A DNA stretch of 57,011 nucleotides from a virus: positions 1-57,011 of the IMG/VR virus record IMGVR_UViG_3300044984_002188; one strand, written 5' to 3'. The notes beneath the pieces were generated by a model. It worked only from the letters and a program-made list of their open reading frames with translations. It ran no database searches and was not told where the DNA came from. Shown here piece by piece: positions 863 through 36,855 of this stretch (its first letter is position 1; the number at the start of each line of letters is the position of its first letter). A program made the translations under genes and the position numbers.

Positions 863-1063
863 TTACTCTCCTCCACCACCATCTCCTCCACCTTCACCAC
901 CACTCTCTCCCTCTGTATTATTGTTATTGTTATATCCATAAAGACTATAACCATAATAAGGGAATGTATATCTCTTTGCTTTCTTCTTGGTTTTCTTCTT
1001 TTTCTTTTTGGTCAGATCAAGATAAAAATTATAGTTTTCTAAAAATTCTTTAAATTTCTTCAT
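863..1063 (-). CDS. Small basic internal head protein with capsid-targeting N-terminus
   Basis: This 66-residue protein opens with MKKFKEFLEN, almost identical to the openings of the 1060-1608 and 2201-2605 proteins, followed by a lysine run (about residues 18-30), a Tyr/Asn-rich stretch and a Gly/Glu-rich tail. T4 internal proteins carry a similar leader (MKTYQEFI-type) that targets them to the prohead core. Here the usual L-x-E cleavage site is replaced by L-E-N, so processing may be absent or atypical. Its ATG overlaps the stop of the upstream gene as ATGA, so the two are co-transcribed. The basic centre suggests DNA or RNA binding inside the head; this is inference. Confidence 0.6.
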   Translation of the reverse strand: MKKFKEFLENYNFYLDLTKKKKKKTKKKAKRYTFPYYGYSLYGYNNNNNTEGESGGEGGGDGGGGE

Positions 1064-1608
1064 TGCTTTATTCCGTGTATGATTCCATGTTCTAATTTTG
1101 CATCAGGGAATACCTTCTTTACATCATTCAGGTATGCGTGTGTTGGTGCATTGTTTTGCCATGAATCTTTCTTTGTCTTCTTTCCTTGTCCTGTTTTATC
1201 GCCTTCGTAAATGCCAATAAAGATTCTACCACCCGGTTTGAGTGTTGAATGTGCTGTCTTCAGGGCTTCTTGTCGGTATTCCGGCTCTTTAATGACATTC
1301 AGCACATTAAAGAGTGATGCCGTATCTGCTCCCTGCTTGCCTACAGTATCCATGATGTTCTTATTGTGTTCTTCTGGGCGATTGAAGGGATCATAGACAT
1401 GAGCGTCTACTCCCAAATTTTTAAGAAATTCTACACCATTATCAAACTTACCCCCACCATGATCAATATGAATGGTTCCGTCTTGAAACCCACCTAATTT
1501 TTTATGAACAACAGAGTAGCCAGTTGGAAGTTTGGTTTTGTTGATGCTGGTTTCGGCTGATGAGAACTCCTGAGCATCTTCTAATAAAAATTCTTTAAAT
1601 TTCTTCAT
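1060..1608 (-). CDS. SAM-methyltransferase-like protein with capsid-targeting leader
   Basis: The 182-residue protein starts MKKFKEFLLEDA, a T4-like capsid-targeting leader with a predicted prohead-protease cut after LLE (residue 10). The rest resembles a class I SAM-dependent methyltransferase: a glycine-rich motif I (IDHGGGKFDNG, about residues 48-58), an acidic motif II in VYDPFN (about 72-77), and a post-motif LKPGGRIFIGIYEG (about 125-138). The substrate cannot be told from sequence. An AATAAATA late promoter lies 8 bases before the ATG. The combination predicts an enzyme packed in the head and injected with the DNA. The methyltransferase assignment is by motif only. Confidence 0.7.
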   Translation of the reverse strand: MKKFKEFLLEDAQEFSSAETSINKTKLPTGYSVVHKKLGGFQDGTIHIDHGGGKFDNGVEFLKNLGVDAHVYDPFNRPEEHNKNIMDTVGKQGADTASLFNVLNVIKEPEYRQEALKTAHSTLKPGGRIFIGIYEGDKTGQGKKTKKDSWQNNAPTHAYLNDVKKVFPDAKLEHGIIHGIKQ

Positions 1609-1616
1609 GGTACAAT

Positions 1617-1624
1617 ATTTATTG
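1617..1624 (-). promoter_or_regulatory. T4-like late promoter (AATAAATA)
   Basis: AATAAATA on the minus strand, 8 bases before the ATG of the methyltransferase-like gene. In T4 late promoters transcription starts about 6 bases after the octamer, so this mRNA would have almost no leader. Confidence 0.6.
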
Positions 1625-4227: not shown

Positions 4228-4662
4228 ATGATTTCTAGACTCTATTCGGCTGGTCAAATCTTTCATGATTCTGTATATGAGGGTTCCATGTATGTGGAAG
4301 TTTCATATACAAATAGATTAACCTTTGACTCTGCATATACCATGATGGAACCTTGGGCTGAAGCCATTGAGCCTTCTACTGTTGCCATTACAAGTTTTTC
4401 ATCAAATTTGTTCATGGGAACGGCTGATGGTCTATGGATCTATAAAATATACAATGGTGGAGTATTGGTCAAGACCATTCAGATGGTTGATCAGCAGTTT
4501 GCCATTCCAATAATGTATGATCGAGTCGAGAGCATTTCAATGGGTTCGTTACAAATGACACCTTCAAGTGATGTTGCCCCTACTCCCGTTCCTTCTCCGG
4601 GCATGGGGTTGATGCTAGGAATGGCTGCATTTATTTCATTAAAACGTAAACGAGTTGTTTGA
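4228..4662 (+). CDS. Protein with PEP-CTERM-like C-terminal tail
   Basis: The body (about 115 residues) is not recognised. The last 24 residues read VPSPG, a hydrophobic stretch (MGLMLGMAAFISL) and a basic end (KRKRVV). That is the layout of PEP-CTERM sorting signals, in the VPSP variant, which exosortases process in some Gram-negative bacteria. From ATG 4228 there is no signal peptide. An in-frame GTG at 4168 would add KFFKTISCTFILIVYTNF, which does look like one but overlaps the HNH gene and lies upstream of the promoter box. I chose 4228 on the promoter pattern; the longer form remains possible. If the sorting signal is real, it points to the host and to a surface-exposed product. Confidence 0.6.
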   Translation: MISRLYSAGQIFHDSVYEGSMYVEVSYTNRLTFDSAYTMMEPWAEAIEPSTVAITSFSSNLFMGTADGLWIYKIYNGGVLVKTIQMVDQQFAIPIMYDRVESISMGSLQMTPSSDVAPTPVPSPGMGLMLGMAAFISLKRKRVV

Positions 4663-4686
4663 CAACCACTCTACATAAGGTATCAT
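4659..4686 (+). promoter_or_regulatory. Sigma70-like promoter
   Basis: TTGACA (4659-4664), 16-base spacer, TATCAT (4681-4686), 6 bases, ATG 4693. Likely drives the small-gene block from 4693 to about 7525. Confidence 0.65.
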
Positions 4687-4692
4687 ATTGAT

Positions 4693-4929
4693 ATGAACAC
4701 AACACTCAAGACATCAAAGATTGGGAGTAACCATGCCACCTTCAGCGGCAATGAATATATGTTCATTGAATGGATGTATAAAGTGAAGCCTGAGTTTGAA
4801 TACAACTACATTAGACTTGACGATGCGTTTACCATTCTTTTTGATGGTAACAAGAAGTTTGCTAATGACATTCTTAAGTTTATTCGTAATGACGGACACT
4901 ATACGCTTATAAACAAGAATTGGAAATAA
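4693..4929 (+). CDS. Small unknown early protein
   Basis: 78 residues, soluble, rich in aromatic residues (EYMFIEWMYKVKPEFEYNYIRL). No family recognised. It is the first gene of a tightly packed plus-strand block and starts 6 bases after a TATCAT -10 box, so its mRNA should be leaderless. Confidence 0.6.
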   Translation: MNTTLKTSKIGSNHATFSGNEYMFIEWMYKVKPEFEYNYIRLDDAFTILFDGNKKFANDILKFIRNDGHYTLINKNWK

Positions 4930-4936
4930 CATCAAC

Positions 4937-5167
4937 ATGAGCAAAGAAATTGATATACTAAAAGCAGAGAATGACCTTCTTCACGAAAAAATTGAAGTTA
5001 TGCGAACCGTTCTATATGAATGGAATGCAACATCACACCCCGTATGGGAATATCGAAAGTTAAAACAAATTGGTGAGACTGAAAGTGATTACGAAGATTT
5101 AGTCGAAGATGATGACGGTGGATGGTCTGCCGGACCGGATGATGACGATTTTGAAAACGAAAACTAA
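4937..5167 (+). CDS. Small acidic coiled-coil protein
   Basis: 76 residues: an N-terminal heptad-like helix (EIDILKAENDLLHEKIEVMRTVL) followed by a strongly acidic C-terminus (DLVEDDDGG, PDDDDFENEN). It starts 7 bases after the previous stop, so it is probably co-transcribed. Acidic small early proteins in phages can bind host proteins, but nothing here names a target. Confidence 0.6.
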   Translation: MSKEIDILKAENDLLHEKIEVMRTVLYEWNATSHPVWEYRKLKQIGETESDYEDLVEDDDGGWSAGPDDDDFENEN

Positions 5168-18088: not shown

Positions 18089-18980
18089 TCTGAATTATTT
18101 TCTTATTCATTAACCCATACAAATTAGGATCATATGGTTTTGTGAGTAAAGAATTCAATGTATTAGCAGAAATAACCTTAGTTACATTCTCTAACTTATT
18201 ATTTGGTAAAACCTCTGTACTCTCTTTTAACATATCGGTTACGGATTTGGTACTCCAGGTCCTACAAGCCCAGTAGCGTGCCTTCCAGCGAGGTCCAGGG
18301 GTATCACATCTGTGTCTTGCACGAAAATTACGACGACGAGCTGGATTATCTCGCTTAATTTCCATATTAGGGTCACCAAAATTAACTTTAACCACATTAC
18401 CTTTATCATTCTTTACAAAAACTTTATACTTTTTAACATCACCAGACATAATTTTATTCAATTTTACTTTTTTGTTTCCTTCTTCATATATTTCAATTTT
18501 TTCATTGTATTCATTATATGAAGTCTCTTCAATATTATCTACAAACCCCATGACTGTATTAGCTTCAAAAATTTCAGTACTTTCACAATTATTATTTAAA
18601 AAAGTTACATGATAAAGCCCATTAGACTCTTCAATATAATCTACTTCTAACATCTGACCAGATTCATTGATAATTACATCACAAGGAAGCAATTCATGTG
18701 CTTCGATGGTATCAAAATTCATTGTAAATACTTTAGAAGCACCTTTTACTGCAAACAAATTATAAGATTCTTTAATTTCAGAAACACCAGTTTTTACAAA
18801 TACTGGATTATTGCCTTTACTCTCTGTAATTTCTTTTTTGCTTTTAACAGTTTTCTTATCAGCATTACGCTTTTTAATAGAACTAGAATTACTGTTGGCA
18901 GCTTTTTTAGCTAGCCATTTACCAAGTCCTGTTTCTGCAAAAATCTTTTCAAGGAGAATGTTAACATTTTTAGAATTCAT
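18084..18980 (-). CDS. Internal/virion protein with basic RARH-C module
   Basis: 298 residues. The leader NILLEKIFAETG offers L-x-E at E11. A Lys-rich region (about 24-52) and a beta-rich middle follow. A strongly conserved-looking basic module (about 200-245) contains VNFGDPNMEIKR, RRRNFRARHRCD and KARYWACRTW. I recall this module in structural proteins of T4-like marine phages; its function is unknown, but the Cys/His/Arg pattern suggests metal or nucleic-acid binding. AGGAAC precedes the ATG, so it is read from the upstream gene's transcript. Confidence 0.65.
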   Translation of the reverse strand: MNSKNVNILLEKIFAETGLGKWLAKKAANSNSSSIKKRNADKKTVKSKKEITESKGNNPVFVKTGVSEIKESYNLFAVKGASKVFTMNFDTIEAHELLPCDVIINESGQMLEVDYIEESNGLYHVTFLNNNCESTEIFEANTVMGFVDNIEETSYNEYNEKIEIYEEGNKKVKLNKIMSGDVKKYKVFVKNDKGNVVKVNFGDPNMEIKRDNPARRRNFRARHRCDTPGPRWKARYWACRTWSTKSVTDMLKESTEVLPNNKLENVTKVISANTLNSLLTKPYDPNLYGLMNKKIIQN

Positions 18981-18982
18981 GA

Positions 18983-21355
18983 TTAGTTCCTATTTTGTGT
19001 TTCACCTTTATGGTGACCGTTATCGGCTCTATTTTCAGAACGATCCCGAACACGTAAATTTTTTACATTGTTTGAACCACCATTACGAAGAGCATTTTTA
19101 TGATCAATATCTTTTTTAGATCCTTTTTTAACAACTCCTTTTTTGATCATCAGTTCACGTGCAGCAGTTCTTGATGCACGTTCTCTTTTCTGTTTGGGTT
19201 TACCGTGGTAATTTTTATATTCTTTTTTATAATTTCTTATATACTTCTCTTCTAGATTATCAGAAATAATATCTTCAAACAAAGGAATAAGATATTCTGT
19301 GTCTTCGACTGTATATGAGTAAATTTTATTTAAAATTGGAATTAGACATCCAGCACGTAGATCATCTTCTTCTAAAAGAAGAGGACCATAATGTTCAATC
19401 ATATTTCTTTCCGTATCAGAAATTATATTAACTTTATTCAATTTAGACAATAAAAAATTATTTGTTAAAGATTCAATAAGCATTTCATTAATAACAAAGT
19501 AATTTTCACCCAATAATTTATCAGTAACAGTTTCAGTTTTGTTTACTGGAATCTTAATTGTCTTTTTTCCAATAGTAACATAATTATACTCTACTGAATT
19601 AATATCTTCAGGTTTAAATCCAGGGAGTAAACTAGCATTAATATCAAAAGATAGATTATCAATTGAATTTTTAACAATTAATGAAAGAGGTTCAATAGAT
19701 TTTCTATCTACAAAAAGTTTATTTGTATTTTCTGTATCTTCTTTACTTTCAACTACGGTTTTCCATTTTTGTAAATTCTGAACAGCAGACTTTTTATATG
19801 TGGATATATTTGAAGTATCCATTGCAAATTCATTTTGTTTGATATCAATTGAGGCAGTTTTAGCAATCTCACTCATATAATCATCAGACATCGGAAATAC
19901 ACCATTGGTTGTTATAATATGGTTTGGTGCATTCTTTGGGTCAACCATGCCATCACCACGTAAAGATGTTTGTAATATATTCTTAGTTAAAGAAACCAAG
20001 AATGAATTCTTTTTTCCACCTTTAAATAAATCGTTACCAGCTTTTTTAATTGAACTTTCGTATGCTGAAACAGATGCAGCAGGATTAATCTGACCATTTT
20101 GATCAATTACAAATCCTAAACTTTGTCCTGATGGAGAAAATATTTCTTGTGATTGAAATTTCTTTACTAATTCAGGATTACTAAGAATTAGTTGAATAGA
20201 TTGATCGGGTAATAATTGTGGTGAAAATTTATCACCAAATGAAGTTACATCTGCTAGAAGTTTCTTTACATATGGATCAGATTTTGCAAGCTCTGGATCC
20301 ATTATTGTTTTAGTCAAAGCATTACCAATAATACCTCTAACAATTTTTCCACTTTGGTTTAAAGAGTTTGTGCTCATAGTAAATTCACCACCAGCAGAAA
20401 TCTTAAATTTGTATTCACCACATTGTAATTCTGGAACACCATCGGAATACATACTGGAATTACCAGATTCTACTGTACTTAATAGATTTTGAATACACTC
20501 ATCACCAATTTGTGATAGAATCTTATTTGCTTGTAAAAAAGCTGTCTTGGTAAAATCTAAAGAATTGGCTGATCCAGAAAATAATGCATTTAATTCTTGT
20601 TCACTTGCTCCAGCTTTTAATTTGGCAGCAAAAATTAAAGCATTAATTACTTGTTGATTGTATGGTAAATTTGAAGTAGTATTAATACCAAATTGGTTAG
20701 TTAAAGCTTCAAAAGTAATATTATCAAATTCTGCAGATTTTTTAGGAGCCCTAATGCTCTTAAAATATTCTTGTTGCAAATCTAATGGCATAGATGCCAT
20801 TTGATTGGTATCCATACCCTGCATTGCTTGCAAAATTTCTTCTTTAGATAATCGTTTAGCCTTTTGTGGCTGTTCTTCTTTAGTTTCTGGCTCGCCTTGT
20901 TTTGTCTTTTTAGGTTTATCATCTTCTGCAGGAGTTTTAGCTTTTTTATCTTCTTTTTCTCCTGAAGCTTTTAATTCACCAAATAGTAATTTGGACGCAC
21001 GAGTCTGTTCAAATTTTGGATCATTTGTAAAGCTCTTTGCTTCGTCTTCCGTTAATGTATCTCCTTTATTTAATTTTACATGGGTTTCTTTATTAAAAGA
21101 GTCTTTAAAAATTAATTGGATTCTACCAGAAGCAGTTTTTACAGCAATAACTTCTTTGACCAATTCTCCTTTTGATTTTCTATCTCTTGGGATTTGCTTT
21201 GATCTTTCAACTCTTTTACGAGCTGCATCCTTTGATTTATTGTTAGATGCGTTACCGGTAGCCTTTTCTTTAGCGATAGCTTCCCCAGTAGTCCTAAAGG
21301 AGTCGGAGGCAGTGCGGGAGGCTTCGGTTAACTTTAAAAGATCTTTGAAGTTCAT
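18983..21355 (-). CDS. Large internal head protein with C-terminal HNH-like domain
   Basis: 790 residues. MNFKDLLKLTEASR is a capsid-targeting leader with an ideal cut after LTE (E11, then Ala). Lys/Glu-rich regions (about 30-185) precede a long mixed domain of unknown fold. The last 70 residues contain a basic helix (RASRTAARELMIKKG) and an HNH-like core: KDIDHKNALRNGGSNNVKNL, then RVRDRSENR. HNH enzymes cut DNA; here the enzyme may be carried in the virion and act on entry or during packaging. GATAAATA lies 7 bases before the ATG. Confidence 0.7.
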   Translation of the reverse strand: MNFKDLLKLTEASRTASDSFRTTGEAIAKEKATGNASNNKSKDAARKRVERSKQIPRDRKSKGELVKEVIAVKTASGRIQLIFKDSFNKETHVKLNKGDTLTEDEAKSFTNDPKFEQTRASKLLFGELKASGEKEDKKAKTPAEDDKPKKTKQGEPETKEEQPQKAKRLSKEEILQAMQGMDTNQMASMPLDLQQEYFKSIRAPKKSAEFDNITFEALTNQFGINTTSNLPYNQQVINALIFAAKLKAGASEQELNALFSGSANSLDFTKTAFLQANKILSQIGDECIQNLLSTVESGNSSMYSDGVPELQCGEYKFKISAGGEFTMSTNSLNQSGKIVRGIIGNALTKTIMDPELAKSDPYVKKLLADVTSFGDKFSPQLLPDQSIQLILSNPELVKKFQSQEIFSPSGQSLGFVIDQNGQINPAASVSAYESSIKKAGNDLFKGGKKNSFLVSLTKNILQTSLRGDGMVDPKNAPNHIITTNGVFPMSDDYMSEIAKTASIDIKQNEFAMDTSNISTYKKSAVQNLQKWKTVVESKEDTENTNKLFVDRKSIEPLSLIVKNSIDNLSFDINASLLPGFKPEDINSVEYNYVTIGKKTIKIPVNKTETVTDKLLGENYFVINEMLIESLTNNFLLSKLNKVNIISDTERNMIEHYGPLLLEEDDLRAGCLIPILNKIYSYTVEDTEYLIPLFEDIISDNLEEKYIRNYKKEYKNYHGKPKQKRERASRTAARELMIKKGVVKKGSKKDIDHKNALRNGGSNNVKNLRVRDRSENRADNGHHKGETQNRN

Positions 21356-35536: not shown

Positions 35537-35849
35537 GATGATCTTCATGAACATCTGCTTCAAGATCTTTACCGTCATCACTTTCAACTTGTGACTCTAT
35601 GATCTTTACAAATATTTCACCAGCAGTTTGCGTGAAATCTTTATCGGCTTGATCAAACCCTTCAGGGAATTTAATCATTTCAATTTCCATAGTAACATTT
35701 AAACCATCATTACCGTCTTCTTTAAAATCAATTTTACCATACCGATAAACAATACCAGCAAATTGCCCTGATATAATTTGAATCGGACATGTCTGTGTAC
35801 TGTCTACCGATGCTTCTGGAAGAAATTTATATTCAACTGCCTTGTCCAT
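35523..35849 (-). CDS. Small unknown protein downstream of uvsX
   Basis: 108 residues from ATG 35849, chosen because AAGGA lies 8 bases upstream and the longer frame (35924) runs deep into uvsX. Beta-rich centre (PIQIISGQFAGIVYRYGKID) and acidic tail (DDGKDLEADVHEDHLDN). It overlaps the uvsX stop by 17 bases. Its position suggests a recombination or replication partner, but no family is recognised. Confidence 0.6.
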   Translation of the reverse strand: MDKAVEYKFLPEASVDSTQTCPIQIISGQFAGIVYRYGKIDFKEDGNDGLNVTMEIEMIKFPEGFDQADKDFTQTAGEIFVKIIESQVESDDGKDLEADVHEDHLDNA

Positions 35850-36855
35850 ACTTAAATCCTTTTTGAATTTCCACATCCAACTTGTCAAGAATATCTTTTG
35901 TAAAATACTTTTCAGGATCTTCATCTATATTTTTCTCAAATGCTTTTGTACCATCTGGGAGTTCTACTCGTGTTGAAACCTTCTTGAATATATTATATTC
36001 AATTGCAAGGTCTGTCAAGCCATAATATCTGCTTAATCCAGAAGTATAATTCAATCTTGTCTGAACGTGCATGTTTTCCTTGACAAAACGATTCTTATAG
36101 TTGGTGCATTTAATAAAGTTACCAACGATACCTTCGTCAGTCTTATCCTTGCTCTTTGACAGCATGATGATATTGCTAGCCGCATACTTGATACCTGTAC
36201 CACCACCAAGATCCTTAGTAGGAACATATGAACCAATAACTTGGTATGTATGGTTCGTAAGAAGAAGTGGTATCTTTGCCTTACCAAGTTTGAGGGTAAG
36301 AACACGGAACGTAGCCTTGGTAAGTTGTGCCTTGGTCATATCACGCACATCCTTACCTTCTGCCGAATCATTCATTTCTTTGTTTGTCGATAACATTCCC
36401 AAAGAATCAAGAACCATAAAGATTGGCTTGCGGTCTTCTTCAGGTGTTTCAAGTACATCATTGACGATCTTGAGAGCCTGGTTCTTGAACTCTTCGATTG
36501 TTGCAACAGGAACAACTGCAATTCTTTTGGAATCGATTCCCCGTTGTGCAAACATGTCTGAAGTGATTGCTTGCTCCGTGTCAAAGTAGATGACAACACC
36601 GTCTTTGTGGTCTTTAAGGAATTGAGTAGCGATTCCAATTGCATAGAAAGTCTTTCCAGTAGCAGGATCTCCTGCAAGACAAGAGATCTTGTTTGCAGGT
36701 AGTCCACCATATATAGAGCCTGAAAGCAAAGCATTCAGTACATATGATCCAGTATCAATAAAACCTGTAACATCAGCACCATCAATACCATCGGCTACGA
36801 TGGCTGCATCAGGATTATTTAGTTTGCTTAGTAGATTTGTTAGGTACTTTGACAT
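35833..36855 (-). CDS. uvsX: UvsX/RecA-like recombinase
   Basis: 340 residues. Walker A AGDPATGKT (61-69) and a Walker B ending IFMVLDSLG, followed by a DNA-binding loop region and LGGGTGIKYAASNIIML. It forms filaments on single-stranded DNA and promotes strand exchange for recombination-dependent replication, as UvsX does in T4. An AAGAAGAG-type Shine-Dalgarno stretch precedes the ATG. Confidence 0.88.
   Translation of the reverse strand: MSKYLTNLLSKLNNPDAAIVADGIDGADVTGFIDTGSYVLNALLSGSIYGGLPANKISCLAGDPATGKTFYAIGIATQFLKDHKDGVVIYFDTEQAITSDMFAQRGIDSKRIAVVPVATIEEFKNQALKIVNDVLETPEEDRKPIFMVLDSLGMLSTNKEMNDSAEGKDVRDMTKAQLTKATFRVLTLKLGKAKIPLLLTNHTYQVIGSYVPTKDLGGGTGIKYAASNIIMLSKSKDKTDEGIVGNFIKCTNYKNRFVKENMHVQTRLNYTSGLSRYYGLTDLAIEYNIFKKVSTRVELPDGTKAFEKNIDEDPEKYFTKDILDKLDVEIQKGFKYGQGS

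Follow-up and report, generated by a model that had tools for sequence, protein, structure and literature searches.

A minus-strand gene of an environmental T4-like virus of bacteria probably encodes an effector enzyme that is targeted to the capsid, injected into the new host and there methylates a target early in infection, as judged from the sequence and its genomic context. The open reading frame occupies positions 1060–1608 of the window (the whole 57,011-nucleotide stretch that was analysed), stop codon included, and encodes 182 amino acids. It had been placed at this position in the original prediction, and the translation contains everything quoted there, the MKKFKEFLLE leader as well as IDHGGGKFDNG, VYDPFN and LKPGGRIFIG; the strand, which had not been given, follows from the translation as minus. 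Because 12 full-length relatives with 55–83% identity were present in IMG/VR and dN/dS between relatives was ~0.1, the reading frame was taken to be a real gene; it is under purifying selection.

The window encodes UvsX, a gp43-type polymerase, a DnaB-like helicase, primase and ribonucleotide reductase, and was for this reason assigned to a T4-like phage; the nearest isolate by UvsX was Pelagibacter phage HTVC008M (54%). Genes for gp21 and gp23 were absent from the window, which is a 57-kb fragment. Both were encoded by G001, a 135 kb contig with a UvsX that shares 99% identity with the one in the window (35836–36855), as gp21 prohead protease (PF03420, E 3e-39) and gp23 (PF07068, E 2e-135), and both were also present in G004; head and core proteins of G001 carry [LI]xE sites near the N-terminus. 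Between the window phage and G001 the methyltransferase (1063–1608) was only 82% identical, and from this difference to UvsX we conclude that effector genes diverged, or were exchanged, faster than the core. The T4-type late promoter (TATAAATA) has ATAAATA as its core; this motif was found at 25 sites in the window, 16 of them within 45 nt upstream of the start of an open reading frame (binomial P 1.5e-18). The motifs often end just 5–7 nt before the start codon (e.g. 1616–1622), implying that many late genes would have very short or no 5' untranslated leaders.

Analysis of the domain bore out the methyltransferase-like reading of the original prediction beyond chance: Pfam Methyltransf_23 was matched above its curated cut-off (E 6e-7), and the same family was matched by 13 of the 14 members of a first alignment. 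Assignment to a known named family was rejected, as only the generic Methyltransf_23 exceeded its cut-off in Pfam, PHROG 14016, which covers the N-terminal two thirds of the protein, carries no function, and NCBIfam matches lay far below cut-off. No significant match was obtained in a sequence search against solved structures (best E 0.11), and alignment-based searches yielded additional viral and bacterial homologues. Across 39 sequences Q13, S17, T20, D49, G53, D73 and N101-V-L-N-V-I106 were invariant. Motif I has the form D49-x-G-x-G53-K, the last G of GxGxG being replaced family-wide by F, Y or others; the window copy carries H50 in this motif (DHGGG), a position filled by I, Y, L or W in relatives, and H50 could affect activity.

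Structure prediction and fold search had been proposed as a check in the original prediction. AlphaFold with the 39-sequence alignment gave a model with pLDDT 85.9 and pTM 0.82 (an earlier model with 12 sequences was weaker, pLDDT 75.8), and in Foldseek the top PDB match was Trm9, a tRNA methyltransferase (E 6e-7), with METTL6 and further SAM methyltransferases ranking next; with VIA-align, Z reached 14.7 over 151 residues at 2.9 Å. Nearly all PDB fold matches were SAM methyltransferases, with tRNA, rRNA, small molecules and peptides as substrates. The modelled protein thus has a predicted Rossmann-like class I SAM-methyltransferase fold, as anticipated.

The first ten residues of T4 IPIII are by themselves enough to direct incorporation into the head, and mutations showed that residues 4 and 7 matter for targeting and residues 8 and 10 for processing (PMC9026906). 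The window leader carries F4, F7, L8 and E10, thus matching the T4 targeting and processing positions, and K2, F4, F7 and E10 were invariant in 12 aligned sequences (the window protein and 11 IMG/VR relatives). For searches, the pattern M-K-x-[FY]-x-x-[FY]-[L/I/M/V/F]-x-E was used (DNA form ATGAARNNNTWYNNNNNNTWYNTNNNNGAR). The window gave three matches, where shuffles led to an expectation of 0.01, and each of ten relative contigs gave one to six, with 0 for the reversed-pattern control; in T4 the matches were ipII, ipIII and the small ORF 61.1 and no others. T7, phiKZ and the huge phage LR745208 gave no match, and the reversed-pattern control matched once in phiKZ. A chance origin of the leader was rejected on the shuffles, the reversed-pattern control and the recovery of T4 ipII and ipIII. 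Among 25 leader-bearing sequences (window and relatives, 24 with other cargo), positions 1, 2, 4 and 10 were constant, the constancy of 1, 2 and 10 being partly imposed by the search pattern; position 7 was F or Y, position 8 was L or I, and the sequence beyond position 10 was variable. T4 gene 61.1 (L082 467–631; record 18966–19130), which encodes 54 aa beginning MKTFKEFIKE..., fits the strict capsid-targeting pattern, and its product may be an unrecognised internal head protein.

Alignments with leaderless homologues from bacteria and other viruses mostly began at residue 11–13, and many standalone leaderless homologues have their initial Met at position 11 or 12, such as those of Thiomargarita-type bacteria (MQQLSSAATSLNQ...). 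Because these proteins begin with their own Met at about residue 12, the leader is read from the alignment as a precise addition, with the natural start of the domain where the leader ends. In the AlphaFold model residues 1–11 had pLDDT below 50; from this and the start of leaderless homologues at 11–12, the possibility that the leader is an integral part of the methyltransferase fold was rejected. The capsid-targeting leader of the original prediction therefore held up, both in its agreement with the experimentally defined T4 positions and as a clean extension of a domain that elsewhere lacks it. As a head-loading tag of the T4 kind, it makes it probable that the enzyme is packed into virions and enters the cell together with the DNA. 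The leader is short, and its function is read from its pattern and its context.

Features of the methyltransferase gene and of leader-bearing neighbours in the window
Feature	Position	Strand	Remark
ATAAATA T4-type late-promoter motif	1616..1622	-	7 nt upstream of methyltransferase start codon
Capsid-targeting leader MKKFKEFLLE, residues 1–10	1579..1608	-	predicted prohead-protease cleavage after E10 (L-L-E)
Class I SAM-methyltransferase domain (predicted), residues 13–182	1063..1572	-	leaderless homologues align from residue 11–13
Motif I DHGGGKFD, residues 49–56	1441..1464	-	predicted SAM-binding loop after beta-1; model strand 46–50
Motif II YDPFNR, residues 72–77	1378..1395	-	acidic D73 after beta-2
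Motif IV position NVLNVI, residues 101–106	1291..1308	-	not DPPY/NPPY of DNA amino-methylases
LKPGGR, residues 123–128	1225..1242	-	typical of Methyltransf_11/23-type enzymes
Downstream 66-aa ORF MKKFKEFLENY...	863..1063	-	same leader DNA; without E at position 10; low-complexity body
Second leader gene MKKFKEFLAE with DUF5872 domain, 134 aa	2201..2605	-	leader pattern match
Third leader gene MKTFKQYLLE plus 150 aa	8971..9453	-	function unassigned; ATAAATA 7 nt upstream

Three open reading frames in the first 2.6 kb of the window (863–1063, 1060–1608 and 2201–2605) share identical 24-base leader DNA. The first of these is coupled to the methyltransferase gene via a 4-nt ATGA overlap and is less certain to be a gene. 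The DUF5872 protein is likely, from its leader, to be co-packaged cargo; in relatives its gene neighbours that of the methyltransferase and bears a leader of the same kind. Leader-bearing DUF5872 proteins were also seen in L002, L004, L013 and L067, and DUF5872-related stretches without leader occur inside larger cyanophage proteins (S-CAM8 gp114 and the S-B68 'structural protein' T4-GC0119). Between the two leader genes lies a leaderless plus-strand gene (1626–2204) with a match to PHROG 3704 (E 7e-14), which is labelled ferredoxin.

Other relatives carry different leader-tagged cargo at the methyltransferase gene. In L006 an ADP-ribosyltransferase (4543–5148; PF03496, E 3e-14) is joined to it by an ATGA overlap and is a possible functional counterpart of T4 Alt; in L008 a candidate GNAT acetyltransferase stands beside it (a weak match, E 0.008), and several further leader-tagged proteins of unassigned function adjoin it in relatives. 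Two other leader-tagged proteins resemble by eye an HNH-type nuclease (L074 682–948) and a muralytic enzyme (L070 1789–2505), with no match in Pfam. About 47 bp of promoter and leader of the window methyltransferase match the same stretch of the unrelated L067 DUF5872 gene at 94%, and because of this match we suggest that leader and promoter may move as a unit. For this aquatic T4-like clade, a wider proposal can be made which we regard as evenly balanced: late promoter and ten-residue leader would form an exchangeable delivery cassette that precedes enzymes unrelated to each other (methyltransferase, ADP-ribosyltransferase, a possible acetyltransferase and more), so that each phage would have a variable set of injected effectors, and the methyltransferase would be a hitherto unnamed effector family that also occurs inside polyvalent proteins.

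A 1493-residue stretch of L041 combines the methyltransferase domain with PBECR5 (E 1e-56) and ART-PolyVal (E 4e-37); L039 likewise has the domain, there accompanied by a weaker match to ART-PolyVal. Polyvalent proteins combine several disparate effector domains, and the window protein has a single one. The available text of PMC5512222 regards polyvalent proteins as injected along with the parasite DNA, and the methylases that it describes are of N6-adenine type.

The window protein would be synthesized late, from the T4-type late-promoter motif just upstream. Given its match to the T4 capsid-targeting sequence, the leader would bind the prohead core, which would lead to the protein being enclosed, and a gp21-type prohead protease would cut after L-L-E10. 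The predicted product of 19 kDa (residues 11–182, pI about 8.1) would be mildly basic and lie amid the packaged DNA; at infection it would be ejected with the DNA and, in the first minutes, would methylate a target of the new host as a host-takeover or counter-defence effector. Host or phage DNA, RNA or protein had been considered as substrates in the original prediction. Among these, host RNA or protein (or a small molecule) is tentatively favoured over phage DNA on motif and fold grounds, because the classical DNA-methylase motifs are absent, and modification of phage DNA is the part of the earlier suggestion that fared poorly.

A packaged DNA methylase that is injected to methylate and protect the incoming phage DNA against restriction, as modelled for P1 DarB, would have DarB as its precedent (available text of PMC5512222), and the window protein weakly resembles TIGR04096 (E 5.6e-5), a putative methyltransferase associated with DNA phosphorothioation. 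This match is partial and reaches 22 bits against a family cut-off of 150, however; no (D/N/S)PP(Y/F) motif is present, its place being taken by NVLNVI in all 39 sequences, the best fold matches among those listed are RNA, peptide and small-molecule methyltransferases, and 170 residues leave no room for a target-recognition domain, so that we consider protection of phage DNA unlikely. We hold it to be quite unlikely that the protein is an ordinary late cytoplasmic methyltransferase whose leader-like N-terminus is incidental, or that it binds the head core for assembly and is not ejected. T4 IPIII does also influence head assembly (PMC9026906), but unrelated cargo of the same phages has a leader with the same functional positions, promoter and leader DNA are in places common to unrelated cargo, and the leader is cleanly added to an otherwise leaderless domain.

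An inactive methyltransferase fold serving as a structural or decoy internal protein is highly improbable. H50 in motif I of the window copy would fit such a role, as would T4 IPI, which works by binding and not by catalysis (PMC3012670), yet the family-wide invariance of D49, G53, D73, N101-I106, Q13, S17 and T20 and the dN/dS of about 0.1 fit an active site. An injected enzyme acting on a host target is the preferred reading.

Among known systems, T4 IPII/IPIII (MKTYQEFIAE) resemble the window protein in the ten-residue leader with M1, K2, an aromatic residue at 4, F7, L/I8 and E10, in being small and basic, and in the T4-type prohead protease, which is present in near relatives of the window phage; unlike them, the window protein carries an enzyme domain as cargo, and beyond the leader the sequences show no similarity. 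T4 IPI blocks a restriction enzyme by binding to it, whereas the window protein is an enzyme domain. T4 Alt is an ADP-ribosyltransferase that is packaged, injected and active on the host at entry, a role like that proposed for the window enzyme, from which it differs in chemistry and fold. P1 DarB is a virion-borne methylase delivered with the DNA, which for the window enzyme is only predicted; it is a large N6-adenine methylase-helicase with NPP(Y/F), whereas the window enzyme is short, lacks NPPY and stands singly behind a T4-type leader. With polyvalent-protein methylases there is a likeness in that the domain family of the window protein is also fused to PBECR5 and ART-PolyVal.

KVP40.0066 and its orthologues in Vibrio schizotequatroviruses have the same leader positions (K2, F4, F7 and E10 are retained in KVP40.0066) and the same catalytic motifs, and by these features KVP40.0066 likely belongs to the same family; it differs in having 27% identity in the alignment and an insertion before the K-D-S-x-Q motif, and is annotated as hypothetical. 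Standalone homologues of Thiomargarita, Parabeggiatoa and Marithrix share the domain from residue 13, with QxxSSAxTS, DIGGGK, YDxFNR, NVLNVI and Q151, but have no leader and start with Met at position 12.

The statement in the original prediction that injected methyltransferases are not among the known T4 internal proteins stands for IPI, IPII, IPIII and Alt as covered in the available text of PMC9026906; beyond T4, P1 DarB is a precedent (available text of PMC5512222). With injected modifying enzymes (T4 Alt) and a virion-borne methylase (P1 DarB) already known, the principle is not new. What is new, as predicted from sequence comparison, is a putative class I methyltransferase family of T4-like phages that is targeted to the capsid, its apparent kinship with a polyvalent-type domain and the cassette-like spread of the leader. 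Among the papers that a literature search listed, mostly judged by title and abstract, none reported a capsid-targeted methyltransferase of this kind or virion proteomics for the source phage or for KVP40.0066.

If this reading is true, injected effectors of T4-like phages could be listed from sequence, with a methyltransferase named among them, and KVP40.0066, being encoded by a culturable phage, would offer a direct test case. T4-type internal proteins and polyvalent proteins would then be two delivery routes linked by one common effector domain, and infection by these phages would include an early methylation step on a host target.
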